This document shows positions 2,059 through 24,407 of a DNA stretch of 24,653 bases, in pieces. Every line of letters starts with the position of its first letter. The first letter of the stretch is position 1. The notes below the pieces were generated by a model. The model made no database searches. It saw only the letters and a program-made list of their open reading frames with translations, and was not told the origin of the DNA. The translations under genes and the position numbers were made by a program. This DNA comes from a virus: positions 1 through 24,653 of the IMG/VR virus record IMGVR_UViG_3300042691_012630. One strand, written 5' to 3'.

Positions 2059-2088
2059 TTGATGGCTGAATAGCATACATGCTACATT
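2059..2088 (+). promoter_or_regulatory. Weak sigma70-like promoter candidate before the tail genes
   Basis: TTGATG (2059-2064) and TACATT (2083-2088) are separated by 18 bp. Each matches the sigma70 consensus at only 4 of 6 positions. The palindrome at 2071-2084 would lie in the spacer and touch the -10 box, a classic repressor position. This is a low-confidence reading from sequence only. Confidence 0.25.
2071..2084. promoter_or_regulatory. Palindromic site 1: TAGCATACATGCTA
   Basis: Perfect 5-bp arms TAGCA/TGCTA flank a 4-nt centre. It lies in the divergent gap between the minus-strand membrane gene and tail tubular A, 12 nt before the latter's ATG. It is one member of a dispersed family (see findings). 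Confidence 0.6.
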
Positions 2089-2711: not shown

Positions 2712-4921
2712 TGGCCCTTGTCGCCCCGATGTGGAACGCCTTCAACGCGGGGGAGCTGTCCTCCGAACTGGATGGGCGCACCGATCAGGAGAAATACTTC
2801 ACAGGGTGCAAGACCCTCTTCAATTTTATCCCCTCCGTGCGCGGGCCCGCCGTCAGGCGCGGCGGTACGCTCTACCGCGGCGCCACGAAGGACAACGGCA
2901 AGGTCTGGTTCCAGTCCTTCGAGTTCTCCTCCTCGCAGTCCTACGTGCTCGAGTTCGGCCAGCTCTACCTGCGCTTCTGGGTCAACCGCGGCCAGCTCCT
3001 CGACGGTGGCGCCCCTTACGAACTGGCCTCTCCGTGGACGCTCGACGACCTCACCACCACCGACGGGACCTTCGCGCTGCGCGTCGTCCAGTCGGGCGAC
3101 GTCATGTGGATCACGCACTACACCGGCGCCGTCGCCCCCTACAAGCTGACGAGGCTTGGCGCCACGAACTGGACGCTGACCGCCGTCGCGTTCACGACCG
3201 GGCCGTTTGACGACGTCGACCCCACCAACACCGTCACCATGCAGGCCAGCGTGGCCACTGGCACCGGCACGCTGACAGCCTCCGTCGCGACGTTCCAGAG
3301 CTACCACGTCGGGTCCATCATCTACCTGGAGACGGACGACCCGTCCCTGCCGCCGGCGTGGGGTACGAACAAGGCGGTCGGCGCCAACGTGGTGTGGCGC
3401 TACGAGGGCAACGTCTATGAGAGCCAGAACGCGGCGACGACCGGCGCGTCCCCGCCCGTCCACCTCCGGGGCATCGCCAACGACGGGGCTGTGAAGTGGA
3501 AGTACCTGCATTCAGGTTGGGGCGTGGCGCGGATCGACAGTCTCACTTCCGACACCGTGGCCAACATCACCGTCCTCAGCCGTATCCCCGGAGACATCAC
3601 GGCGGCCGGCTTCGACGGCTCCACCTCGACCAAGAGGTGGGCGTTCGGCGCGTTCAATTCGGACGCGGGCTGGCCCACCACCGTCGGCTTCTTCCGCGAG
3701 CGCCTCGTCTATACCCGCGGTCGCACCGTGTTCATGTCGGTCGTCGGTGGCTTCGATGACTTCTCGCCCTTCGAGGGGCGCGACGTCACCAAGGAGACGG
3801 CGATCAAGCTGACGGTCGGCGCCGACAAGGTCGAAAGTTTCCGCTGGCAGACAGAGGTCAAGGATCTCCTGCTCGGCACCGCGCGCAACGAGCTGTCGAT
3901 CTCCGAGCAGACGACGCAACAGGTCTTCGCCGCCGACAACGCCAAGCGCACGCCGCAGACGCAGTACGGCTCCCGCCACCTGGCGCCGGTGGCCGTCGAG
4001 AGCGCAACGCTCTTCGTCCCCCGCTCCGGCCAGGGTATCCGCGAACTGCGCTACTCCTACGAGATCGAACGCTACAAGGCCGAAGAGCTTTCCGTCCTGT
4101 CGCGTCACGTCGTCGAGGCCGGCATCGTCGACATGGACTTCCAGCAGGAGCCCGACAACGCGATGTGGTGCCCGCTGGCCAATGGCAAGCTGGCGCTCCT
4201 GATCTACAACCGCGAGCGCGGCGTGATCGCCCTCGCCCCCTGCGAGATCGGCGGCGGCGCCGTCGTCGAGACCGCCGCCGTCATCCCCAAGCCCGACAAC
4301 ACCCGCGACGACCTGTGGCTGGTCTGCAAGCGCACGATCAACGGCCAGACCGTCCGCTACGTCGAGATCATGGAGGACTACCGGCTCGCGAACACCGACA
4401 TCCGCGACGCCTTCTTCGTCGACAGCGGACTGACCTACTCCGGCGTTCCGGTGACGAGCGTCGCCGGCCTCGACCATCTCGAAGGCGCGACGGTCCAGGT
4501 GTTGGCCGACGGGAGCCCGCACGCCGACTGCGTCGTGACCGGCGGGCAGATCACCCTCACGCGCTCGGCCTCCAAGGTCCACGCCGGCTTCGGCTACGCT
4601 TCGCGGCTCCAGCCCATGAGGCCCGAGGCCGGCGCGCAGAATGGCTCGGGGCAGGGGCGCACCCGCTCGACGAGCGAGCTCATGCTCCGCTTCAAGGATA
4701 CGCTCGGCGGGCGCGTCGGCCCGTCATTCAGCACGATGGACCCGCTCAAGTACCGCTCCCCCGCGACGCCCGTCGGCGCCGCGCCGAGCCTGTTCACGGG
4801 CGACATCGAGTTCACCATGCCCGCCCGGTACGACACCGACGGCTATGTGTGCGTCGAGCAGAACCAGCCGCTCCCGATGACTGTCGTGGCCATCCGGCCC
4901 AAGCAGCAGGTCAATGATTGA
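2711..4921 (+). CDS. Tail tubular protein B (T7 gp12-like nozzle)
   Basis: This 736-residue protein directly follows tail tubular A in the same order as T7 gp11-gp12. The N-terminus has the pattern seen in podovirus nozzle proteins: FNAGELSSELDGR, then KYFTGCKTLFNFIPSV and GPAVRRGGT. The middle is beta-rich with insert-like Thr/Ala stretches (about residues 160-260). A segment near 325-345 (GFFRERLVYTRGRTVFMS) is typical of the beta-propeller part of these proteins. The family builds the distal tail tube through which DNA leaves. The start overlaps the previous stop, and the end overlaps the next ATG by 8 nt. The assignment rests on motif memory and gene order; the exact subfamily is not certain. 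Confidence 0.8.
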   Translation: MALVAPMWNAFNAGELSSELDGRTDQEKYFTGCKTLFNFIPSVRGPAVRRGGTLYRGATKDNGKVWFQSFEFSSSQSYVLEFGQLYLRFWVNRGQLLDGGAPYELASPWTLDDLTTTDGTFALRVVQSGDVMWITHYTGAVAPYKLTRLGATNWTLTAVAFTTGPFDDVDPTNTVTMQASVATGTGTLTASVATFQSYHVGSIIYLETDDPSLPPAWGTNKAVGANVVWRYEGNVYESQNAATTGASPPVHLRGIANDGAVKWKYLHSGWGVARIDSLTSDTVANITVLSRIPGDITAAGFDGSTSTKRWAFGAFNSDAGWPTTVGFFRERLVYTRGRTVFMSVVGGFDDFSPFEGRDVTKETAIKLTVGADKVESFRWQTEVKDLLLGTARNELSISEQTTQQVFAADNAKRTPQTQYGSRHLAPVAVESATLFVPRSGQGIRELRYSYEIERYKAEELSVLSRHVVEAGIVDMDFQQEPDNAMWCPLANGKLALLIYNRERGVIALAPCEIGGGAVVETAAVIPKPDNTRDDLWLVCKRTINGQTVRYVEIMEDYRLANTDIRDAFFVDSGLTYSGVPVTSVAGLDHLEGATVQVLADGSPHADCVVTGGQITLTRSASKVHAGFGYASRLQPMRPEAGAQNGSGQGRTRSTSELMLRFKDTLGGRVGPSFSTMDPLKYRSPATPVGAAPSLFTGDIEFTMPARYDTDGYVCVEQNQPLPMTVVAIRPKQQVND

Positions 4922-5342
4922 TTTCGTGCCGGCGCAGGCCTGGATGGCCAACACGATCCGGCTCCAGCCGACACAGGTGCTTGCCGGCCACAAGCCCACG
5001 CCAGAGGCGCTGGCCTTCGCAATCTCCCGCGGCAGCGCGCTCGCGTGTGTGAGGCACGGCGAGATCGTCGCCCTTGGCGGCGTTATGGAACATTGGCCCG
5101 GTCGCGGCGAGTTGTGGGGGCTTCTCTCTGGTAGCATTGGTGCTGATATGCTATTGATGCACCGTGCAGTCCTGCGCGGTTTGCAGCTCGTCAAGCATGA
5201 GCGCCTCGAGGCCGTTGTCTTCGAGGGCCATGATGAAGGGCACAGGTGGATGGCGATGCTCGGTTTCGAGGCCGAAGGCGACATGCAGAACTACTGGAAC
5301 GGGCTGACTTTCACCCGTTACGCCCGCGTTCGGAGGGGCTGA
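4914..5342 (+). CDS. T7 gp13-like protein with GNAT-type acyltransferase fold (DUF2833-like)
   Basis: This 142-residue protein sits between the nozzle and the gp14-like gene, where T7 encodes gp13. Its pattern resembles the DUF2833/GNAT-like proteins common at this locus: a short N-terminal beta strand, a GEIVALGGV strand, a GELWGLLS strand and a C-terminal GHRWMAMLGFEAEG motif like the last strand-helix of GNAT enzymes. In T7, gp13 is needed for normal virion assembly. Whether this protein has any transferase activity is unknown. The gene overlaps the preceding stop by 8 nt and the next start by 1 nt. Codons near 5130-5155 are unusually AT-ending (GGT AGC ATT GGT GCT GAT ATG CTA) and coincide with a palindromic site. 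Confidence 0.7.
   Translation: MIDFVPAQAWMANTIRLQPTQVLAGHKPTPEALAFAISRGSALACVRHGEIVALGGVMEHWPGRGELWGLLSGSIGADMLLMHRAVLRGLQLVKHERLEAVVFEGHDEGHRWMAMLGFEAEGDMQNYWNGLTFTRYARVRRG
5132..5153. promoter_or_regulatory. Palindromic site 2 (intragenic): TAGCATTGGTGCTG plus extra ATGCTA half-site
   Basis: Positions 5132-5145 match TAGCA-N4-TGCTA with one change at the last base. A further ATGCTA at 5148-5153 pairs with the first TAGCAT, giving a second dyad with a 10-nt centre. It shares the 12-mer AGCATTGGTGCT with the site at 19809. Confidence 0.45.
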
Positions 5343-5896: not shown

Positions 5897-8700
5897 TGGC
5901 CCAAATCGTCCAGATCGCGCAGTCGGCGCAGAGGAACGACCTCCCCGACATCGACATGAAGCAGCGGGACTATTCCGCCAACGACTTCGGCGGGCAGATC
6001 GCGGGCGCGCTCGGCGTCGCCGGCGGCGAGATGCAGAAGGCCGCCGCCATCTTCCAGGCCGACTACAAGCAGCGCGAGAACTTCAACCGCCTCACCGCCC
6101 TCACCGACTTCGAGACCCGCGAGCAGCAGCGGTTGGCCGAAGCGCAGCGCGCCGCCGCCGGTGACGGGCGCGACTTCACCAAGTCCTTCATGGCGCAGCA
6201 CGACGCGCAGGCGCAGCAGCTCCTCGCCGGCGTGACCGACCCGACCGAGCGGGCGCAGTGGCAGCAGCGCATCGCGCAGCTTCGGCAGAACTTCACCCGC
6301 GGCGCGCTGACCGCCGAGCTCGGCGTGCGCGACAACCACTACGGCACGACGCTCGCAACGCAGCAGACGCCGATCCTCAACGCCGTGGCCGCCAACCCCG
6401 CGGTGGCCGAGCGCGAGCGGGCCCGTGGCCTCGAGATCATCAACGCGACGGGTCTGCCCGAGCCGACGAAGGTCCAGCTTCGCGCGAAGTGGGAGCAGGA
6501 CGTTCAGACTGCGAAGCTGATGGGGACGATCCAGCAGGACCCCGCGGCGGCCGCTGCGGCTCTCGGCGGCACGACCCCCTACCGCGCGACAGCCCGCCAG
6601 GCGGAGAGCTCTGGCAACGACCGCGCGGCCAACACTGCGTCTACTGCGGTCGGGCGCTACCAACCCATCGCGGGAACCTGGAACACGGTGGCCAACTCGC
6701 CCGAAGGCCGGGCGGCAGGGCTGCGGCCGACGACGGACAACCGCCGAGTGGTGAACGGGCGCGTGCAGGGCGAGCCTCCGGCGGACGACCCGCGCTATGA
6801 CCCCGACCAGCAAGAGAAGTTCATGGATCTCTTCACCCGCCAGAACATGGCGGCGCTGGCGAAAGAGGGGGTCCAGCCGACCGCGCGTAACGCCTACCTC
6901 GCCCACTTCATGGGGGTTGGTGGCGCGGTGCAGTTCATCCGTCAGATGGAGCGCACGCCGAACGACCCCGCCGACCGCTATTTCGGCGAGGCGGCCAACT
7001 CCAACGGGCGGGTCTTCTACCGCCCCGACGGCACGCCGCGGACGTTGGCCGAAGTCTACGAGGTCCAGACGAGGAAGTTCGCCAACGCCGGCACGCCGAC
7101 CGCCGCGCCCTCGCAGGACTTCGCGCAGGTTCCCTTCCAGCAGCAGGCGCAGTTCCGCGACCAGGCAGTCCGAGAGGCCACCCGCCGCCAGACCGAGGGC
7201 GACGCCCTCATGAACCAGCAGCAGCAGCAGCGCCTCGACCAACTTATGACCGCCATCGTGGACGGGAAGGCAGGCCGCGCCGATGTCGTGGCCGCCCGTG
7301 ACCGCGGCGAGCTGACCGACTTCAATTCCTACAAGCGCGCGCTCGACCTCGTCGCGCAGCAGGAGAGCCGCGACTACTACACCAACCAGTTCAACGCGGG
7401 AGTGGCTGCCGGGCGGCAGTGGAACCCGCTCGACACCGAAGACAAGAAGTCGGCCGAGGCCGGTGTGTGGGCGCTGGCCAAGGTGAACGGCAACAACGTG
7501 CCGCAGGCCGCCTTCCAGGTCTGGCAGCAGACCGGCATCCTGGCCAAGCCGGGCGCCGAGGCGCTGCGCGGCGCCATGCAGTCGACCGACCCGCAGCGCA
7601 TGGGCGCTGCCTACCAGATCGCCGCGTCGATGCTCCGCGCCAACCCCAACGCTTTCGCGGGGGTTGACGGCGGCAAGGAATTGGAGCAGGCGGCCGCGCT
7701 GTTCTTCGACCGGGTCGAACGCCGTGGCCAGACAGCCGACGAGGCCGTGCGCGCCATCGCCGAAATGAACCGGCCAGAGGCGCAGGCGGCGCGGCAGGTG
7801 CGCGACGAGGACGCCAAGCGCTTCCGCGACGAGCTGACGAAGCGCGACCAGACTTCGACGATCCGCAGCATCCTCGACACGAACGGCTGGCTCCCGGGCG
7901 GCCGCGGTGAAATGCCGATCGGCGCCCGCGAGCGCAACGCCCTGATGTCCGACTACGTCTCGGCCGCGGAGGAGCACTACCAGAAGTTCGGCGACCGCTC
8001 GGCGGCGCTGACCTACGCGCAGAACGAGGTGAAGCGGCTCTACGGCGTGTCGAACGGGCGCATCATGCGCTTCCCGCCCGAGCGGTCCTACCCGGCCGTC
8101 GAGGACGCCGACGGCAACAAGTCGCACGCCTACGTGTACGCGCAGGCCGCCGCCGCGGTGCAGTCGGCCACCGGCCGCGCCGTGAAGCCCGAGGACATCA
8201 CCCTCGTCCCGATCCCCTTCGGCATCACGTCGGAGCGGTGGCGCGCCGGCGACCGCCCGCCCTACGAGATCTGGCATCGGTTCACCGACGCGACCGGCCA
8301 GCAGCGGTACGAGCCGGTCCTCAGCCCCAACTCGACGATGGCCCGCCCGTGGTCAGCCGACCCCGCCGCCGCGACGGCCGCGACGACCGCAGAACGTGAG
8401 GCGCGCTTCCGCGCCAGCCCGATCAGGCCCGTCACCCCGGCCGAGGCTCCGGCCGGGCAGGACCCGCAGGCGTGGTCAGATCGGGAAAACATGCGCCGCC
8501 GCCTGATGACGGGTGACTTGCTGCCGACCGACCCGCGCCCGCCCGCGCCCGGCGAGGTCCGCCCTGGCTACCAGAACCCGGAAGGCGTCGCAGTGCCGTG
8601 GAAGCCGACCGTCGACGAGTTCCGCCAGTCCATGCGCCGAAACCTCGGGCTTAACCCCGACGGGACGTCAACCCGCAGCCGCACACGGAGGCCCGAGTAA
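5896..8700 (+). CDS. Ejection protein with lytic transglycosylase domain (T7 gp15/gp16-like)
   Basis: This is a 934-residue internal virion protein. Residues about 225-365 look like a soluble lytic transglycosylase: AESSGNDRA with likely catalytic Glu237, followed by AVGRYQ (residues 251-256), the usual G-x-x-Q motif of this fold, and later a hydrophobic helix, YLAHFMGVGGAVQFI (about 334-348). The domain would cut peptidoglycan to let the ejection channel cross the cell wall. In T7 the equivalent domain sits at the N-terminus of gp16; here it is in the protein encoded before the giant one. The rest is helical and Gln/Ala-rich, with five consecutive Gln at about residue 440. Its start overlaps the gp14-like stop by 1 nt and its stop overlaps the next ATG (TAATG). 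Confidence 0.8.
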   Translation: MAQIVQIAQSAQRNDLPDIDMKQRDYSANDFGGQIAGALGVAGGEMQKAAAIFQADYKQRENFNRLTALTDFETREQQRLAEAQRAAAGDGRDFTKSFMAQHDAQAQQLLAGVTDPTERAQWQQRIAQLRQNFTRGALTAELGVRDNHYGTTLATQQTPILNAVAANPAVAERERARGLEIINATGLPEPTKVQLRAKWEQDVQTAKLMGTIQQDPAAAAAALGGTTPYRATARQAESSGNDRAANTASTAVGRYQPIAGTWNTVANSPEGRAAGLRPTTDNRRVVNGRVQGEPPADDPRYDPDQQEKFMDLFTRQNMAALAKEGVQPTARNAYLAHFMGVGGAVQFIRQMERTPNDPADRYFGEAANSNGRVFYRPDGTPRTLAEVYEVQTRKFANAGTPTAAPSQDFAQVPFQQQAQFRDQAVREATRRQTEGDALMNQQQQQRLDQLMTAIVDGKAGRADVVAARDRGELTDFNSYKRALDLVAQQESRDYYTNQFNAGVAAGRQWNPLDTEDKKSAEAGVWALAKVNGNNVPQAAFQVWQQTGILAKPGAEALRGAMQSTDPQRMGAAYQIAASMLRANPNAFAGVDGGKELEQAAALFFDRVERRGQTADEAVRAIAEMNRPEAQAARQVRDEDAKRFRDELTKRDQTSTIRSILDTNGWLPGGRGEMPIGARERNALMSDYVSAAEEHYQKFGDRSAALTYAQNEVKRLYGVSNGRIMRFPPERSYPAVEDADGNKSHAYVYAQAAAAVQSATGRAVKPEDITLVPIPFGITSERWRAGDRPPYEIWHRFTDATGQQRYEPVLSPNSTMARPWSADPAAATAATTAEREARFRASPIRPVTPAEAPAGQDPQAWSDRENMRRRLMTGDLLPTDPRPPAPGEVRPGYQNPEGVAVPWKPTVDEFRQSMRRNLGLNPDGTSTRSRTRRPE

Positions 8701-14322: not shown

Positions 14323-14348
14323 CTTCTGCCACTATGACGGGCACAAAG

Positions 14349-14362
14349 TAGCATAGGTGCTA
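14349..14362. promoter_or_regulatory. Palindromic site 3: TAGCATAGGTGCTA
   Basis: Perfect TAGCA/TGCTA arms with a 4-nt centre, in the gap between the tail fibre gene and the lysis cassette. It ends 12 nt before the ATG at 14375, the same distance as site 1 from its gene. A related sequence, GTAGCTCTCGTGCTC, lies about 47 bp downstream (14396-14410) with one arm mismatch. Confidence 0.6.
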
Positions 14363-14364
14363 TC

Positions 14365-14369: not shown

Positions 14370-14374
14370 CGATG

Positions 14375-17366: not shown

Positions 17367-19236
17367 CGCGCCCATCCGCCGAGAAGTGAAGCATCTCGTT
17401 GCCGACGCGCACGGCGCCGGCAATCCGCTTCGTGACCCACTCCTTGACGCCCGTATGGTTGCCGTCCTGCTGCAAGAGCATGATGGCTGTCCCGTGGCCT
17501 GACACCGCCTTCGCAGCCTCGGCGAGCGTCATGGACCTGCAGTTGGTCTCACCCATCACCCTGACCAGGATGTCGGCGATCTCACGCGCCTCGCGGGCGT
17601 CGGCGTCTGCCGTGCTTTCGGCCTTCGAGAAGACGCCGTTCGACCCGTCCTTCTTCAACCGCAGCTCGGTCCCGGCCATCGCGTAGTTGGCCTTCTTGAG
17701 CGACATGAGATAGATGCCCTTGTCGGTCTTGTGGCGCTCGAGGTAGATGCGTGAACGGGCGCTGTTCGACCACGCGGTGTTGCCGCTCGACCCGTCGCCG
17801 GTGGCCATGCCGGTCCTCGACGGGTGGGCCAGCAGCAGGACCGTCGTTCCGAGGTTGGAGCAGATCGACTGCAGCACGTTCATGGTCTGGCGGGCCTGCG
17901 TCTTGTCGACCTCGTTGCCCTGGAAGATGTCGGCCAGGTTGTCGATGACGAGCAGCGACGGCTTGAGGCGCGCGCAGGTCTCGGCGAGCTTGCGCCACTG
18001 AGGCGTCAGGGACAGCGCACCGTCCCGGTCGAACTTGACGAGCACGCTGTCGAGGCCGGCGCGAGGGATGAGGTGGATGTCGCGCATCCCGGCGAACCGG
18101 CCGAACGGCCCCTTCACGCTGGCAAGCCGGCGGTGGAGATCGCCCTTCTCTTCCTCGGCCGACATGACCACAACGGGGCCGCGCTTGCCGACGGCCATCC
18201 CGAGCCACTCGCCGCCGGTGGCCGTCGCGTGAGCGAGCTGCATGGCCGCCGTCGACTTGCCGATGCCACCGTCGCCGTAGAGCAGGGTGACGTAGCCAAC
18301 CGGGATGAAGTCCGGCACCAGCCACTCCCGCTCCGGCAATTCCTCCTCGTCCGAGAAGCTGGCCGCGCAGATCACCTGCCAGTCGTCCGTCGGCACGGCC
18401 TCGGGCGGGACGTTCACGCCCTCGAAGATCTTGTCGGCGGCGCGAAGGCCGTGGCTGTTCTCCGAATAGCGGAAGGCGTTGTCGACTTTGACGCGGAGGT
18501 CCTCGGGCGTCCACGGCGGTAGGCAGCGATCGTTCCAGTGGTCGAGCATGAGCTCGAGCGCCTCGGCGGGCGTGACACCACGGTCGGAGAGCGCGCAGGC
18601 CACGGTGAAGGTCGTGTGATCCCCGCCGGCGCCCTCCACGGCTACCAGCGTCCGCGGGTCCGTCAGGTAGGACCTGGCGTCGGCGACGCGCGACGGCGGC
18701 GAGGGCGGCGCGCTCCAGTCTACGACGCGCTCGCCGGTCTTCTCCTTGGGCTTGCGGCAGGCGGCGATGAGGCTTTCGGGCGCTTCGGCCACGGGGAGAT
18801 CGTGAAGGACGCGGTACTCCCCGACGGCGGTACGGCTGCCCGGCGCGACGACGTACCCGTCTACCCCGCGGATATCGATGCCAGGAGCGATCTTGCTGGC
18901 GCTGTTCGCGACGTCGATGGCCGTCCGGTAGTAGTGGTGCGTCCCGCCCGTAGGCGTGGCCACCGTCAGCGTGTCGGGCAGCCCGAGAGCCTTGAACGAC
19001 GCCATCGCGCCGGGATGTTTCCCCTCGTCGACGTCGACGACGATGAGGCCTTCGCAGCGCACGCCGATGTTGGCCTGCGGGTACTTCTGCCAGACTTCCC
19101 ACGCCGCGATCTCATCGCGAACGACGAGCGCGCGCCAGTCCATGCCGGCCATCGGGACCTTCACCCCCTGGGCGAGCGGGAATACCGCGAAACCGCGGGA
19201 CGCCCACTCAAAAGCTGCTTCCCCTAGAACAGACAT
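17353..19236 (-). CDS. Primase-polymerase / RecA-type helicase fusion
   Basis: This is a 627-residue replication protein. Residues about 1-170 form a PrimPol (bifunctional primase/polymerase) domain: AAFEWASRGFAVFPL, NIGVRCEGLIVVDVDEG with Asp68 and Asp70, PTGGTHHYY with His100/101, and GIDIRG with Asp121, followed by YVVAPGS. A linker region follows (about 170-300). A RecA-fold ATPase then starts near 300 with Walker A GDGGIGKST (Lys327) and Walker B LLVIDNLADIF (Asp432), like RepA/AAA_25 helicases; a SRTGMATGDGSSGNTAWSNS loop follows. The C-terminal 80 residues may be a winged helix. It should unwind DNA and make primers at the fork. ATG 19236 was chosen because the domain starts there; an in-frame ATG at 19392 lies within the HNH gene. 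The gene overlaps the HNH gene by 13 nt. Confidence 0.85.
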   Translation of the reverse strand: MSVLGEAAFEWASRGFAVFPLAQGVKVPMAGMDWRALVVRDEIAAWEVWQKYPQANIGVRCEGLIVVDVDEGKHPGAMASFKALGLPDTLTVATPTGGTHHYYRTAIDVANSASKIAPGIDIRGVDGYVVAPGSRTAVGEYRVLHDLPVAEAPESLIAACRKPKEKTGERVVDWSAPPSPPSRVADARSYLTDPRTLVAVEGAGGDHTTFTVACALSDRGVTPAEALELMLDHWNDRCLPPWTPEDLRVKVDNAFRYSENSHGLRAADKIFEGVNVPPEAVPTDDWQVICAASFSDEEELPEREWLVPDFIPVGYVTLLYGDGGIGKSTAAMQLAHATATGGEWLGMAVGKRGPVVVMSAEEEKGDLHRRLASVKGPFGRFAGMRDIHLIPRAGLDSVLVKFDRDGALSLTPQWRKLAETCARLKPSLLVIDNLADIFQGNEVDKTQARQTMNVLQSICSNLGTTVLLLAHPSRTGMATGDGSSGNTAWSNSARSRIYLERHKTDKGIYLMSLKKANYAMAGTELRLKKDGSNGVFSKAESTADADAREAREIADILVRVMGETNCRSMTLAEAAKAVSGHGTAIMLLQQDGNHTGVKEWVTKRIAGAVRVGNEMLHFSADGRVTLS

Positions 19237-19814
19237 TCTCTCGCCCTCAGTTCCCTCTCGGCGTCCGCCGCACTGTCGTACCCGTCCGAGACGATGAAGT
19301 ATTTGTTGGCGTACCGGACAATCTGCCGTGTGTAGGAGAATGCTCGGTTGGCGTTGTTCATTTTCGTGGTGACATCGCGAAGGTTTGCCCACCTGTTGTT
19401 GGCCCTATCGCCGTCAACGTGGTCGATTACACCCTCCGGCCACGCGCCAGTCATCAGGAACCAGGCAACCCGGTGGGCCACGATCTGCTTCTTTTTACGA
19501 GGCCTTTCACCCCACATTACGAACAGATGCTCGTAGCCGTCTCGTCTCCGAGCGGTCGCAAGATCGCCTCGTTTCGCCCACGTTCTCCGGTCTCGCTTGT
19601 ATTTTATCTCCCCCGTAAGTGGGAAGTACTCGAAAGTCTGCCTAATATATTCGTCCAGCCCCAACGTCCGCGGAGGCTCGCCTTTAAATAAATCAACAAA
19701 GTCGCGAGCTTCATTTAAGGTGTCGAAAGTGTAGGACGCTTGCTTTCCTTTGATACGGCTTCGTACCCGCACTTGATAGCGTTCGCCCCGTTTCCGAATG
19801 CAAGGAGGCAGCAT
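19224..19814 (-). CDS. HNH homing endonuclease
   Basis: This 196-residue protein has a basic N-terminal DNA-binding part (about residues 1-45, RGERYQVRVRSRIKGKQASY followed by TFDTLNEA), a linker, then an HNH_3-type nuclease: YFPLTGEIKYK, KKKQIVAHRVAWFLMTG and IDHVDGDRANNRWANLRDVT, carrying the HNH His and Asn residues. Such free-standing endonucleases spread by cutting phage DNA that lacks them. Composition supports transfer: by hand count, 19561-19740 is 90/180 G+C (50%), far below its neighbours. The ATG at 19814 has no clear Shine-Dalgarno sequence and lies inside a palindromic site. The gene is wedged between the winged-helix gene (9-nt gap) and the primase gene (13-nt overlap). Confidence 0.85.
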   Translation of the reverse strand: MLPPCIRKRGERYQVRVRSRIKGKQASYTFDTLNEARDFVDLFKGEPPRTLGLDEYIRQTFEYFPLTGEIKYKRDRRTWAKRGDLATARRRDGYEHLFVMWGERPRKKKQIVAHRVAWFLMTGAWPEGVIDHVDGDRANNRWANLRDVTTKMNNANRAFSYTRQIVRYANKYFIVSDGYDSAADAERELRARECLF

Positions 19815-19822
19815 TGGTGCTA
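19809..19822. promoter_or_regulatory. Palindromic site 4: CAGCATTGGTGCTA
   Basis: It matches TAGCA-N4-TGCTA with one change at an outer base. On the minus strand it reads TAGCACCAATGCTG and contains the HNH start codon. It shares 12 bp with site 2. Confidence 0.45.
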
Positions 19823-19823
19823 C

Positions 19824-20069: not shown

Positions 20070-20271
20070 GGTACCCCTCCTTCGGGCGAATGTTGATGGC
20101 GTAGGCGGCGATCCCGCCGAGAGCCTTGAGCGCGACAGCGCCCTGGTCGAGCGGCACCGGGCAGGTGATGAGGCCCGAGCGGAACACGTAGGCCTTGCTC
20201 GGGAAGAGCGTCATCCCGCGCGTGAGGACGCGGTTGATGAGGTGCTTGGGGTAGGCTTCCCTATTTGACAT
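20050..20271 (-). CDS. Hypothetical protein, 73 aa
   Basis: I do not recognise this protein. It starts at ATG 20271, with GGAGGA about 8 nt upstream, and overlaps the end of the polymerase gene by 11 nt and the winged-helix gene by 20 nt. It has a basic N-terminus (NREAYPKHLINRVLTRG), a middle with SKAYVFRSGLITCPVPLDQG, and a hydrophobic stretch (ALGGIAAYAINI). No catalytic motif or clear transmembrane segment is visible. Tight packing and a good ribosome binding site support a real gene; it is probably co-translated with the polymerase. Confidence 0.6.
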   Translation of the reverse strand: MSNREAYPKHLINRVLTRGMTLFPSKAYVFRSGLITCPVPLDQGAVALKALGGIAAYAINIRPKEGYHGHVVG

Positions 20272-22366
20272 AGCGCTTGTCCTCCCAGGTTGCGGCGGCG
20301 ATCGGCAGGCCCTCGGCCCACTCCGGCACGGTGGCCATGATCTTGCGGAGCACCTCGGCGTCGCCCTCCGGCCCCGTCTCGCAGAGAAGCTCGTCGTGGA
20401 CCGTCAGCACGACAGGGAGCCCGGCGTCCTCGGCTTGTAGCATAGAAGCTACCATCACGTCCCGCGCGATAGCCTGCACGACGTTCTCGCACTGCAGCCC
20501 GCCGTAGAGCCGCGACGGGCCCCACCGGCGGGTGACGCTGTCGACCGCGTCGTACTCGATCTGGTAGCGCATCCGGCCGCGCAGGTCTTCGACCTGCACG
20601 AGGCGAGGCTTGGCGTAGGCCAGGCACCGGCCGGACGGCAGACGGCAGAACAGGAAGCCGTTCGACGCGCGGTAGCGGATGCGGCCTTCAAGGACCTGCG
20701 TGATCTCGCCCGGCGAGCCGACGGCCGCGATGGCCGCATCGCTGAGATCCCACCACGACTGGACGATGCGCGGGTGCGCCTCGCGCCACGCGCGCTTGAG
20801 CTCGTCGGCCCGCTCGTCCGTGACCTTGATCCCGTACCCCGAGGCCATGGTCTGGAAGGCGCCGACGCCGCCCTGGTAGCCGAGCGCCAGCTCCATGACC
20901 TTGCCGATCTGGCGGTCGGCCTTGCTGACGTCCTCGACCTTGACGCCGAACGAGCGCGCGTAGGCCAGCTTGTAAAGGTCGTTGCCTGCGCCGGCGTCGA
21001 AGTCGCGGAAGGCCTGGACCTTCCAGTCCTCGCCGGCGAGCCACGCATTGACGCGGCCCTCGATGTTGGAGAAGTCGCCGCCGACGAACTTCTTGCCCGG
21101 GCCGGCGATGAGCATGGCGCGGAGGCACTTCGAGAGCGTCTCCATGGGCTGGCCCGTCAGCATCTCCAGCGCGTCGACGATCTCGGCCGGCCGCATGTCG
21201 AGGCCGAGTAGGGTGAGCGCCCGCTCGACGTCAGGCAGGTCGCGGTCAGGGTCGACGCGGGGGAGGTTCTGCGGCTGGATGAGGCGCCCGGCCCATCGCC
21301 CGGTGGCCGCGCCGTGGTAGGCCAGCGTGCCGCGCACACGGCCGTCGACGCAGGCGCTCTTCTCCATGGCCGTGAACTTGGCCGCCGAGCTCTTCGCCGC
21401 CGCCTTGCGCAGGCGCACGACCTCCTCGACGACAGGGTTGTCGGTGACGGTGGCGCGGAGGATCAGCTCCTCCGTCTCCCCTTTGGCCACGCTCTCGCAC
21501 GGCACGCCCTTCGAGTTGATCCAGGCGACGAGCTTGGCCGTCTCCGTGGTCTTCTGTACCTCGCCGTCGGTGAGATACCACATGCGCTCGTCGGCCCGGC
21601 GCTTGGCCTCCTTGACGACCGCGACGGCCTTGCGAACGATTGGCAGGTCGATCATGACGCCGCGCTCGTTGATGAGCTGGTCGAGCTCGTAGACTTCCTG
21701 CTCGGCGGCGGGGAGGAACGGCAGCGCCTCGTCGGCCAGGCGCTCGGCCTCGACGTCGATGCGGCAATAGTCGGTGAGGCGGTCGATCTTCTCGGGCTCA
21801 TCCCACCAAACGACGCCGTTAGGGTTCACGATGAAACCGTCGCCGCTGCACGTCGTGCAGTCCCACGTGCGCTCGTGTTCATCGCGCCAAATTCCTTTGC
21901 CATGGCAGGCCGGGCATTCTTCCTGGGTCAGGCCGACCTTGCGCGGCCGGCACATGCGCATCATGAGCGCGGCGCCGTCCTTGTCCTTCTGGATCTTGAG
22001 GCCGAGCGCGTAGCCAAGCTGGTCGAGAGAGGCTGGCAAGGCCATGGCCTGCGCCCTGGCCATGGTGCAGATCGTCTGACCGATCTGGATCTCGGGCCAG
22101 TGGGGGCGGTCGCGCCGCACGACCTTGTTCCAGATCTGGCGGTCGAACTGCGCGTTGTGGATGACGATCTTGCCGCCGTCGCGGATGAAGGCCAGGAGAT
22201 CCTCGGGGTCAGGCTCTCCCGGCTTCCACGTCATGACCGGCGCCTCCCCGATGCACCATGCCATGCACCAGACCCCCGTTGAGGGGTCTTCTGCGTAGGC
22301 GTGGGCGCCTGCGGCCCGAAGGTCACAGGTCGAGTAGGTCTCGAAATCGAGGTGCGCCGCGATCAT
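20261..22366 (-). CDS. polA: DNA polymerase, family A (PolA) with 3'-5' exonuclease
   Basis: This 701-residue replicative polymerase starts at ATG 22366 (GAGGA about 7 nt upstream); upstream in-frame codons are a low-complexity shadow of the SSB gene. The exonuclease domain has Exo I LDFETYS (Asp7, Glu9), Exo II HNAQFD (Asp75) and Exo III YCRID (Tyr200, Asp204). A zinc-ribbon-like insert with CPAC (151-154) and CTTC (170-173) lies between Exo II and III. The polymerase domain has motif A GGDFSNIEGR (Asp431, Glu436), motif B RQIGKVMELALGY (Arg485, Lys489, Tyr497) and motif C VHDE (His657, Asp658). The residue aligned to E. coli Phe762 is Leu493. It follows the SSB gene by 10 nt and would copy the phage genome with the primase-helicase and SSB. 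A palindromic site lies inside its C-terminal coding region. Confidence 0.95.
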   Translation of the reverse strand: MIAAHLDFETYSTCDLRAAGAHAYAEDPSTGVWCMAWCIGEAPVMTWKPGEPDPEDLLAFIRDGGKIVIHNAQFDRQIWNKVVRRDRPHWPEIQIGQTICTMARAQAMALPASLDQLGYALGLKIQKDKDGAALMMRMCRPRKVGLTQEECPACHGKGIWRDEHERTWDCTTCSGDGFIVNPNGVVWWDEPEKIDRLTDYCRIDVEAERLADEALPFLPAAEQEVYELDQLINERGVMIDLPIVRKAVAVVKEAKRRADERMWYLTDGEVQKTTETAKLVAWINSKGVPCESVAKGETEELILRATVTDNPVVEEVVRLRKAAAKSSAAKFTAMEKSACVDGRVRGTLAYHGAATGRWAGRLIQPQNLPRVDPDRDLPDVERALTLLGLDMRPAEIVDALEMLTGQPMETLSKCLRAMLIAGPGKKFVGGDFSNIEGRVNAWLAGEDWKVQAFRDFDAGAGNDLYKLAYARSFGVKVEDVSKADRQIGKVMELALGYQGGVGAFQTMASGYGIKVTDERADELKRAWREAHPRIVQSWWDLSDAAIAAVGSPGEITQVLEGRIRYRASNGFLFCRLPSGRCLAYAKPRLVQVEDLRGRMRYQIEYDAVDSVTRRWGPSRLYGGLQCENVVQAIARDVMVASMLQAEDAGLPVVLTVHDELLCETGPEGDAEVLRKIMATVPEWAEGLPIAAATWEDKRYVK
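20438..20451. promoter_or_regulatory. Palindromic site 5 (inside polA): TAGCATAGAAGCTA
   Basis: TAGC/GCTA arms with a 6-nt centre, extended to GTAGC-N6-GCTAC. In the coding strand it is read as codons GTA GCT TCT ATG CTA CAA, which are mostly unusual for this GC-rich genome. Confidence 0.5.
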
Positions 22367-22376
22367 CAGCCGGTCC

Positions 22377-23075
22377 TCAGAACAGCGACGCAGCGTCGAC
22401 GGAGTTGTCGATCTGGATACCGCCGAAGGCCGCCTTCGGGTCGATGCCGCCACCGCCGCCGAGCTTGTTGTCATCGGCCAGCTTGAAGAGCGACTGCAGG
22501 CCGAAGAAAACGCCCGGGTTGGCCGACTGCTTCGAGGCGTAGGCGCGCACGACGGCGATCGCCCACGCGCCCGGGTAGAAGGCCTCGTTGATCTCCTCGA
22601 TCGTGATGACGGCCGTCGGGTTGCCCTGCACGAAGGGCGGCTTCCACATGCTCGGGCGCTGGTTGCCTGTGGCCGAGATGTAGACAAGGCCGGGCACGTA
22701 CCCGCCGAAGGACTTGCCGGCCGGGTTGGTGCCGCCCTTGTCGGGGGCGACGCGCTCGGCCTGGTTCTTGAACGGGTTCTTCATGCCGGCACCCGTCGGG
22801 TTGTTCGGGAACGTGGCCTTGAGGAGATCGTTGCGCGCGGTCACGAGCGGCGCGAGCAGCTCGGCGCCGGCGAAGGGGAAGACGAGGTTCGCGCCGTACT
22901 TGCCCTCCTTGGTGGGGTCGTTAAGGTTCCGCCCCGGCTTGTCCAGGTTGGTGAAGGACAGGCGGGCCGGGGGCAAGCGGATGTCGCCGCTCTCGAGCCG
23001 GACGCAGGGGTTGCCGGCCACCATCTTCTGGATAGCGTCGGCGCTGAAACGGGTGTTCATCATTTCGGTGTTCAT
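22377..23075 (-). CDS. Single-stranded DNA-binding protein (DUF2815-like)
   Basis: This is a 232-residue protein. The N-terminal half has the DUF2815 pattern: RLPPARLSFTNLDKP, then KYGANLVFP, then a stretch with KNPFKNQAERV and a SFGGYVPGLVYISATG strand, followed by ITIEEINEAFYPGAWAIAVV. This family is considered a phage SSB with an OB fold. The end is Gly-rich and flexible, finishing in DAASLF; a terminal Phe is also typical of SSB tails that recruit partners. It lies between the nuclease and polymerase genes, which fits a role at the fork or in recombination. ATG 23075 was taken as start; further ATGs 12-15 nt downstream are possible. A palindromic site sits just upstream, 4 nt before the start. 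Confidence 0.75.
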   Translation of the reverse strand: MNTEMMNTRFSADAIQKMVAGNPCVRLESGDIRLPPARLSFTNLDKPGRNLNDPTKEGKYGANLVFPFAGAELLAPLVTARNDLLKATFPNNPTGAGMKNPFKNQAERVAPDKGGTNPAGKSFGGYVPGLVYISATGNQRPSMWKPPFVQGNPTAVITIEEINEAFYPGAWAIAVVRAYASKQSANPGVFFGLQSLFKLADDNKLGGGGGIDPKAAFGGIQIDNSVDAASLF

Positions 23076-23079
23076 CTGG

Positions 23080-23093
23080 TAGCTCTCTTGCTA
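23080..23093. promoter_or_regulatory. Palindromic site 6: TAGCTCTCTTGCTA
   Basis: Intact TAGC/GCTA arms. It lies between the nuclease gene and the SSB gene, includes the nuclease stop codon, and ends 4 nt before the SSB ATG on the minus strand. It overlaps the likely ribosome binding region of the SSB gene. Confidence 0.5.
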
Positions 23094-24407
23094 GGTCGCC
23101 GGCACGGAAACAGTGGCGAACGCGGCGGCCGGAACAACCGCGTCCCTCTTGTCGCTGGCCGCGACGAGTGTCAGGCCAGAACTTTCCTTGATCGTGAACT
23201 TGAGGCTCACGTCGTCCTTCGCCGCCTTGGCGTTCTTCGCGCCGCCAAGGGCAGAGGCCAGGAGCTTCTCCGCCTCGGTGATCGTGACGAGCTTTGGCGG
23301 CATGAGGTCGTTGACGTCCACGCCGTAGGACGAGGCGAGGTAGCCGGCGATCGAGTGCTCGTCGTCGGTCCACTTGCGGCGGGCCTGCTTCTCCACGAGC
23401 TTGAAGCCCGGGATGTCGCGGCCAGCCTGCGCCTCCTCGAAGGCACGACGCCTGACCTGGTCGAACCAGCCTTCGAGCACGTCGGCGGCGCGCAGGATGC
23501 CGGCCATGCGCTCGACGTCGAGCCTGGCCGGTTCCGGCAGCGCCGAGGGCGTGGCCTCGACGACCGACGAGAAGGCAAGGCCTGCCTCCTTGAGGGCGCG
23601 CTGCTCGATGGCCGGGCATGTCAGCGCCGCCGCGCACCAGCGGCAGTGGTCGCCCGGCGCCAGCCACACCTGCCCCCAATTCGCGAGGTCGCCGCTGGCG
23701 ACGGTCTGGTGCGCGCGCTCCGCCTCGACGCACCGATGGATGGCCGACGCGAGCGTGTCGTAGAACTCCATGACCGTCATGAGATCGAACGACCACCGCT
23801 TGACGCCGCCGTGGTCCTGCGCGGCGTCGAAGCTGCGCGGCTGGACGATGACAACCTCGACGGTCGAGACCCTCCAGTCGTCACGGCCCATCAGCGCGCC
23901 GGTCGCGTAGAACAAGGCCTGCGCGTTGTTCTCCGCCTTCACCGCCACGCCCGCGCCGTGCTTGTAGTCGAAGACCACCAGCTTCTCGCGAGCAGGCGAG
24001 TAAATCATGGCGTCGTTGCGGCCAAAGACCTCGCCTTGTAGCGCCGGAGCTACGTCGAGGACAAACCGCTGCTCGATGAAGAGCTGCGAGCCCGGATCCT
24101 CGGCGTACTCCGCGGCCACTGCGTCGAGGTAGACCTCGACAGCCTCGGCGTCTTCCTTGAGGAAGGTGATCTTCTCGCCGTCCTCGAAGAAGTCCTTGCC
24201 GATGTCCTGGCGGGGGCTGGCCTCGGAGCCTGCCACGCGGAGCGGCAGATACCGCTCGGCCACGTTGTGGGCGACGGTGCCTCGGCGGGCGAAGCTGGAT
24301 GTGGGGGGCGGCGGTGCCTGCTCGCACAGGACGACCGACCCCGGGCAGGCCATCCAGCGCGAAGCCGACGAGCCGCCGTACTTGGAGTGGGCGCGGTCCT
24401 CAGCCAT
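23091..24407 (-). CDS. Cas4/RecB-like PD-(D/E)XK nuclease (DUF2800-like)
   Basis: This is a 438-residue protein. It has an N-terminal CPGS motif (Cys21), a GTVAHNVAE helix (His47), GRNDAMIY (Asp132), VVFDYKHG (Asp147, Lys149) and NNAQALFYA (Gln163): the ordered motifs of RecB-family PD-(D/E)XK nucleases. Three C-terminal cysteines in CRWCAAALTC (256, 259, 265) together with Cys21 match the four-cysteine iron-sulfur cluster of Cas4 and AddB. This is the DUF2800 arrangement in phages. It would resect DNA ends during replication, recombination or host DNA breakdown. The last 150 residues form an additional helical domain. It overlaps the upstream small gene by 8 nt and precedes the SSB gene. A palindromic site lies inside it at 24039. 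Confidence 0.8.
   Translation of the reverse strand: MAEDRAHSKYGGSSASRWMACPGSVVLCEQAPPPPTSSFARRGTVAHNVAERYLPLRVAGSEASPRQDIGKDFFEDGEKITFLKEDAEAVEVYLDAVAAEYAEDPGSQLFIEQRFVLDVAPALQGEVFGRNDAMIYSPAREKLVVFDYKHGAGVAVKAENNAQALFYATGALMGRDDWRVSTVEVVIVQPRSFDAAQDHGGVKRWSFDLMTVMEFYDTLASAIHRCVEAERAHQTVASGDLANWGQVWLAPGDHCRWCAAALTCPAIEQRALKEAGLAFSSVVEATPSALPEPARLDVERMAGILRAADVLEGWFDQVRRRAFEEAQAGRDIPGFKLVEKQARRKWTDDEHSIAGYLASSYGVDVNDLMPPKLVTITEAEKLLASALGGAKNAKAAKDDVSLKFTIKESSGLTLVAASDKRDAVVPAAAFATVSVPAT
24039..24052. promoter_or_regulatory. Palindromic site 7 (inside nuclease gene): TAGCGCCGGAGCTA
   Basis: TAGC/GCTA arms within CTTGTAGC-N5-AGCTAC, the same outer sequence as site 5 in polA. In the coding strand it is read as GTA GCT CCG GCG CTA CAA. 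Confidence 0.5.

Follow-up and report, generated by a model that had tools for sequence, protein, structure and literature searches.

The stretch of viral DNA considered here is the whole of the IMG/VR virus record IMGVR_UViG_3300042691_012630 (24,653 bases, hereafter the window), in which two genes of the minus strand each carry a perfect inverted repeat, or dyad, inside their coding sequence. One is a family A DNA polymerase gene (polA, 20261..22366, Pfam DNA_pol_A), whose dyad reads GTAGC-ATAGAA-GCTAC on the plus strand (GTAGCATAGAAGCTAC, 20437..20452); the other is a DUF2800/PD-(D/E)XK nuclease gene (23091..24407, identified with Pfam), whose dyad reads GTAGC-GCCGGA-GCTAC on the same strand (GTAGCGCCGGAGCTAC, 24038..24053). 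The two sites were singled out by a prediction made from the sequence alone, which held that two unrelated proteins share a peptide, a reading frame, and a set of rare codons at these places, and that the DNA or RNA sequence itself is under selection there. Here, we report that the two codon runs are members of a genome-wide, mostly intergenic family of dyads. This family is non-random in its number, its placement, and its codon cost, and it is tied to the gene of a putative phage helix-turn-helix (HTH) protein.

The window is extended leftward by the IMG/VR contig L014 (99.6% identity across 12.3 kb) and rightward by the contig L004 (100% identity across 1.0 kb, reversed), while a further contig, L003, overlaps both the window and L004 at 99.9% identity; we took these four sequences as one virus species, not as one molecule. 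Together, the window and its two near-identical sister contigs L014 and L004 cover 38.4 kb, 13.8 kb of which is sister sequence lying outside the window. The virus is a temperate podovirus-like bacterial virus, its temperate character following from the integrase gene that L004 encodes beside a partial tRNA gene. The latter, recognized by eye as a 3' half with T arm and CCA (L004 4780-4835), directly follows the integrase gene and is likely to be the attP site; no tRNA gene was found in the window. Because GenBank phages gave only short and distant DNA matches to polA and nuclease proteins below 60% identity, relatives from IMG/VR were used for comparison, and a search of bacterial genomes for polA homologues returned none.

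Over the 38.4 kb, the dyad occurs in 11 strong copies, which start at 2070, 14348, 19808, 20437, 23079, and 24038 in the window, at 836 and 4107 on L014, and at 1399, 2120, and 6589 on L004. Five of the 11 are perfect over 5+5 bp, the half-site is GTAGCAT, and in every strong site, with the exception of one arm change at 19808, the spacing between the centers of the TAGC half-sites is 10 bp, or one helical turn. Perfect GTAGC-N6-GCTAC dyads number 5 when 0.03 are expected, and TAGCA-N4-TGCTA is likewise found 5 times for an expectation of 0.005. Three of the five perfect dyads (L004 1399, L014 836, and L014 4107) lie outside the window, in 13.8 kb where about 0.01 would be expected, and hence in sequence independent of the original observation. 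The motif of this virus, sought at 11/12 positions or better in about 160 helicase-relative loci, matched once, which indicates that it is not generic to phages. Tandem or long repeats were rejected as a source of the family, the repeat search having returned weak G+C-rich chance families only.

Within coding sequence, three perfect copies are found, namely those of polA, the nuclease gene, and terL. On the coding strand, the polA site is indeed read GTA GCT TCT ATG CTA CAA (V-A-S-M-L-Q) and the nuclease site GTA GCT CCG GCG CTA CAA (V-A-P-A-L-Q), and codon usage computed over 23 genes (9,641 codons) bears out the rarity that had been claimed for these codons, GTA accounting for 2.6% of Val, GCT for 6.3% of Ala, CTA for 1.5% of Leu, and CAA for 5.0% of Gln. 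The sole GTA and the sole CTA of the nuclease gene (439 codons) are those of its dyad site, the sole GTA and CTA of terL (292 codons) are likewise those of the terL site, and the remaining five V-A-x-x-L peptides in these genes use neither codon. Since the rare codons are confined to the sites and not spread as a patch, drift in codon usage was rejected. When synonymous codons were permuted within each gene, perfect dyads arose at a mean of 0.003-0.006, and none of the 4,000 trials yielded more than one, as against the three observed.

The shared frame and the shared peptide weigh much less. The terL copy, GTA GCA TCG CAG CTA CAG (V-A-S-Q-L-Q), shares its frame with the sites of polA and the nuclease gene. 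However, a dyad word placed at codon position 3 creates an in-frame TAG on either strand, which leaves two usable frames, so that any two sites share a frame half the time. The agreement in frame is thus real but weak as evidence, and the V-A-x-x-L-Q peptide, although present, follows from the DNA word plus this one-in-two choice; neither was retained as a signal by itself. Two further intragenic copies, at L014 771 in terL (CTAGCAGGTACGCTAT) and at 5131 in the window, use the second open frame, which indicates that the signal is the DNA word and not the frame. The latter is a degenerate copy (GTAGCATTGGTGCTGA, 5131..5146) in the gene at 4914-5342, where it is read S-I-G-A and where its core is kept in the relative G018.

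The family is concentrated at gene boundaries, 8 of the 11 strong sites falling in the 3.1% of the sequence that is non-coding (P about 1e-10, with gene limits hand-picked from lists of open reading frames [ORFs] and with the placement of sites 14348 and 19808 hinging on the choice of start codon). In several cases, the dyad stops 3-11 nt short of a start codon, and the ribosome-binding site follows it or lies inside it. The copy at 14348..14363 (GTAGCATAGGTGCTAT) stands 8 nt before the ATG at 14372, with the ribosome-binding site GGAGG in between; the copy at 2070..2085 (ATAGCATACATGCTAC), identical in L014, stands 11 nt before the ATG at 2097 and has TTGATG 11 bp upstream (2059). The copy at 23079..23094 (GTAGCTCTCTTGCTAG), also present in L003, covers the stop codon of the nuclease gene together with the 3 bases that precede the start of the gene for an Enc34-type single-stranded DNA-binding protein (SSB; 22377..23075, minus strand, Pfam), so that this gene has a dyad directly before its start. 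That at 19808..19823 (GCAGCATTGGTGCTAC) directly follows the stop of the 19824-20069 gene, at the start of an HNH endonuclease ORF. This ORF (19224-19814) begins within the dyad copy, has the 19824-20069 gene on one side and the primase gene on the other, and resembles a mobile insertion.

Some of the sites also sit at likely promoters. TTGACA occurs 11 bp before the dyad at L004 2109/2120 and TTGACG 11 bp before that at L004 2721/2732, and the same order of TTGACA and dyad, with an offset of 11, is found on the minus strand of the relative G011 (2605). Upstream of the major capsid gene, TTGACA precedes the dyad by 16 bp (L014 4091/4107), as it does in G018. The overlap with a sigma-70-like promoter is clear at L014 4107, L004 2120, L004 2732, and G011 2605 and is absent at most other sites.

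Comparison with relatives adds to this picture. G018 shares 57-68% identity with this virus in most shared proteins, and 44% in the nuclease, and keeps dyads at orthologous places: between the scaffold and capsid genes, where both TTGACA and the 16-bp offset are retained, and just after the helicase gene, ahead of the next start codon. Inside genes, the terL peptide A-S-R-Y-A is written GCT AGC AGR TAC GCT in this virus and in G018 (GCT AGC AGG TAC GCT in the latter), as against GCT TCC CGC TAC GCC or similar in most other relatives, and the homologue of gene 4914, in the tail region, has AGC ATT GGT GCT in both. In the nuclease gene of G018, a degenerate dyad (GTAGCAAGTGTGCCA, GTA GCA AGT GTG CCA) stands at the orthologous place. 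A similar case is seen in a gene of the small-terminase region, whose peptide L-A-E-M-L is encoded by CTA GCA GAR ATG CTA, forming a dyad, in G011 and L039, and by CTC GCC GAG ATG CTC in G010. At the polA site, distant relatives (about 52% identical in polA) retain some of the peptide but write it in ordinary codons (GTC GCC AGC ATG TTC in G011), and none of the relatives examined has a dyad at this position, which makes the polA copy specific to this virus. The comparison of synonymous sites among homologues, by which the original prediction could be judged, is accordingly split, the polA site being replaced by ordinary codons in relatives and the nuclease GTA GCA being kept in G018; it favors selection on the DNA where the site exists. 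The broader claim that the nucleotide sequence and not the peptide is selected within these genes holds, by virtue of codon rarity, codon randomization, and the conservation and enrichment seen in relatives.

The products of two neighboring L004 genes (1441-2106 and 2298-2690) are related to each other and have a putative C-terminal HTH, and dyads lie upstream of both genes (L004 1399 and 2120). In the protein of the second gene and in most homologues, the HTH takes the form S-R-x-x-V-Q-A-Y. Neither protein has a match in PHROGs or a meaningful one in Pfam, where nothing rose above cut-offs for any member scanned; several homologues match HTH_31, Xre-like-HTH, and HTH_AsnC (E 1e-4 to 1e-2) without reaching the curated cut-offs. 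In a model of the 1441-2106 protein, of low confidence (mean pLDDT 68.5), residues 145-208 align to XRE regulators with Z up to 4.7, so the modeled C-terminal domain looks like an XRE-type HTH. The homologue in G017 also has a dyad, TTAGC-N6-GCTAA, directly upstream (36065-36080).

This candidate regulator and the dyad co-occur across relatives. Taking as regulator-positive the genomes with a tblastn match at E up to 1e-3, and leaving this virus out, we counted 27 copies of TAGC-N6-GCTA in the 15 regulator-positive relatives for 1.5 expected, as against 5 for 7.4 expected in the 155 relatives without a detected regulator. Among 3,328 four-letter dyads tested in the 15 regulator-positive relatives, TAGC-N6-GCTA was the most enriched. 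TTAGC-N6-GCTAA was rejected as a separate motif because the TAGC core is common to both, and the two were merged.

Other dyads were met in the same genomes. GCATA-N6-TATGC has 3-4 copies each in G024, L144, and L149, all of which lack the TAGC class; in G024 (L143), its copies lie at 6862, 11843, 18114, and 18463, some just before ribosome-binding sites. G024 and L144 have weak matches to a profile of the HTH region (E 0.003-0.007), and it is only suggested by these sequences that GCATA-N6-TATGC may represent another operator specificity, in which the 16-bp geometry is retained and the letters differ. TAAC-N2-GTTA(TG) is found in 4 copies each in G010 (L023 4419, 10376, 15548, and 18704) and G011 (L026 577 and 3958 among them), with 15 copies over the regulator-positive relatives when 0.36 are expected. 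GAACT-N8-AGTTC occurs 3 times per genome in L035 (G012), L026-L028 (G011), and L212 (G026), about 0.05 being expected in G011 and G012, and is possibly the site of a different regulator. TAGCA-N9-TGCTA in L134 and an excess of GCTT-N6-AAGC in L144 proved to be tandem repeats and not operators; L144 holds, from 1561, a 33-bp tandem array of GCTTAC-NNNN-AAGC-like units.

On this basis, we consider it likely that the sites (e.g., GTAGCATTAATGCTAC) are dispersed operators of a dimeric, phage-encoded HTH regulator, the product of one or both of the L004 genes, which would probably be the lysogeny repressor of this virus. A homodimer of the putative regulator would bind the two half-sites of the 16-bp dyad, which lie on one face of the helix at a distance of one turn. 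At the promoter sites, where TTGACA lies 11 or 16 bp upstream, the bound regulator would block initiation, and at sites before ribosome-binding sites and within genes, it would act as a roadblock that silences read-through, as stoperators do. A prophage could in this way stay silent despite read-through, by means of roadblocks at gene starts and inside genes, with the intragenic sites being maintained through the choice of rare codons.

That the likeness of the two codon runs arose by chance, possibly aided by a common peptide, could appeal to the agreement in frame, which alone is a 1-in-2 event; it is refuted by the synonymous randomization, which never yielded two perfect dyads in 4,000 trials, by the three additional perfect copies on the sister contigs beyond the window, and by the conservation at orthologous places together with the enrichment of TAGC-N6-GCTA in relatives, so that we give it next to no credence. 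A more serious alternative is that the sites act as RNA, the perfect dyad being able to pair into a hairpin with a 5-bp stem and a 6-nt loop that, just ahead of ribosome-binding sites and bound by an RNA-binding protein, would control translation or stability; at several sites, 3-11 nt separate the dyad from a start codon on the transcribed strand. However, changes in the outer pairs are single and mostly uncompensated (A.C, C.C, and G.G), the base beside the arm is often unpairable (A.A and T.T), and no two-sided arm change was seen by eye among the 11 copies, for which no formal pair count was run. Rfam gave no match at gathering thresholds. Several sites, moreover, lie at sigma-70-like promoters with TTGACA upstream and others deep in genes or just before stops, and the associated protein is predicted to be of the HTH, that is, DNA-binding, type. 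An RNA element is therefore unlikely, and where the original prediction left the choice between DNA and RNA, DNA fits better.

Binding by a transcription factor of the host, recruited by the phage perhaps to sense host state, is a further reading, with which the location of the motif at promoters would agree. We find this improbable given that the dyads track the phage regulator family (27 for 1.5 expected with it, 5 for 7.4 without), that the regulator gene is preceded by a dyad in two phages, and that a GCATA-N6-TATGC lineage with the same 16-bp geometry is what diverging phage regulators would be expected to leave. As to a role in DNA transactions (packaging, partition, recombination, or recognition by restriction systems) rather than in transcription, a dyad cluster in G011 does lie in the gene of the small-terminase region, where pac sites can be found, and a symmetric, bipartite layout is reminiscent of certain type I restriction targets. 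Such a role is nonetheless very unlikely for sites that are dispersed over the whole genome, concentrate at gene starts, at promoters, and before the regulator gene, and occupy orthologous positions at the capsid and helicase boundaries in G018.

Several observations weigh against the dispersed operators of a phage-encoded HTH regulator that we favor over these alternatives. The link between protein and site rests on co-occurrence, most sites have no recognizable -35 box at a fixed distance, and relatives do not share the polA and terL-276 copies. Foldseek found no significant match to the candidate regulator in the PDB, the Pfam HTH matches of the homologues fall short of curated cut-offs, and the presence of two paralogues means that the cognate regulator may be one or both. 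Among the regulator-positive relatives, G010, G021, G027, L134, and L136 have no TAGC-N6-GCTA, part of them being fragments, and the HTH-region profile gives weak to moderate matches in a few genomes counted as lacking the regulator (strongest in L138 and weak in G023, G024, L144, and others), which slightly dilutes the contrast. The regulator-positive phages are also closer relatives of this virus, so the two groups are not phylogenetically independent and the P value is not to be taken literally; however, 18 close relatives without a detected regulator show no excess of sites (1 observed for 0.9 expected).

From a comparative perspective, the dyads recall several known repressor systems. The CI operators of lambdoid phages are dyads with half-sites one turn apart that overlap promoters, include an autoregulatory site, and are bound by an HTH regulator; they are few and clustered, unlike the dozen copies spread here over about 38 kb. 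In the temperate Streptomyces phage phiC31, the repressor binds dispersed, conserved inverted-repeat operators of about the same length as the dyads here, although host group and repressor differ. In the phage SPbeta, a 15-bp repeated element (SPBRE) is found at many prophage promoters and is bound by the master repressor MrpR, a protein of the tyrosine-recombinase fold (PMC10516654). The dyads resemble SPBRE in being a repeated element, but the SPBRE peaks lie in promoter regions whereas copies here are also intragenic, and the candidate regulator is, unlike MrpR, predicted to be an XRE-like HTH protein.

The closest functional parallel may be found in the cluster A mycobacteriophages L5 and Bxb1, whose operators and stoperators are many scattered copies of one short site (PMC9283540; PMC6550527), with letters that diverge between related phages, as between L5 and Bxb1 (PMC6550527). 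As in these phages, many copies are scattered across a temperate phage genome, some at promoters and many in the short gaps between genes, the (here candidate) repressor gene has a site upstream, and the letters diverge between relatives. The L5 sites, however, are 13-14 bp long, have no dyad symmetry, are aligned with the direction of transcription, and are bound by a monomer (PMC9283540; PMC6550527), when those described here are 16-bp dyads, several of them intragenic, with a different HTH protein as the candidate regulator. The class to which the L5 sites belong is defined by a bound repressor that halts elongation and by a monomeric repressor with an HTH and a stoperator domain; being dyads, the present sites are not members of it, and we infer that they would work like the L5 stoperators (PMC9283540) without belonging to their class.

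Taken further, these observations raise the possibility, to which we give about even chances, that an undescribed family of HTH regulators controls a group of temperate podovirus-like phages through genome-wide palindromic operators that are synonymously written into conserved genes, with at least two specificity classes (TAGC-N6-GCTA and GCATA-N6-TATGC), a palindromic stoperator strategy outside mycobacteriophages. In more than a dozen uncultivated phages, an unannotated regulator family would thereby be tied to a precisely defined DNA site, so that immunity groups could be predicted from sequence, and the stoperator idea would become testable outside mycobacteriophages. Protein-coding genes that accept rare codons in order to carry phage control sites, and that conserve these sites orthologously, would provide an uncommon kind of evidence for intragenic operators.

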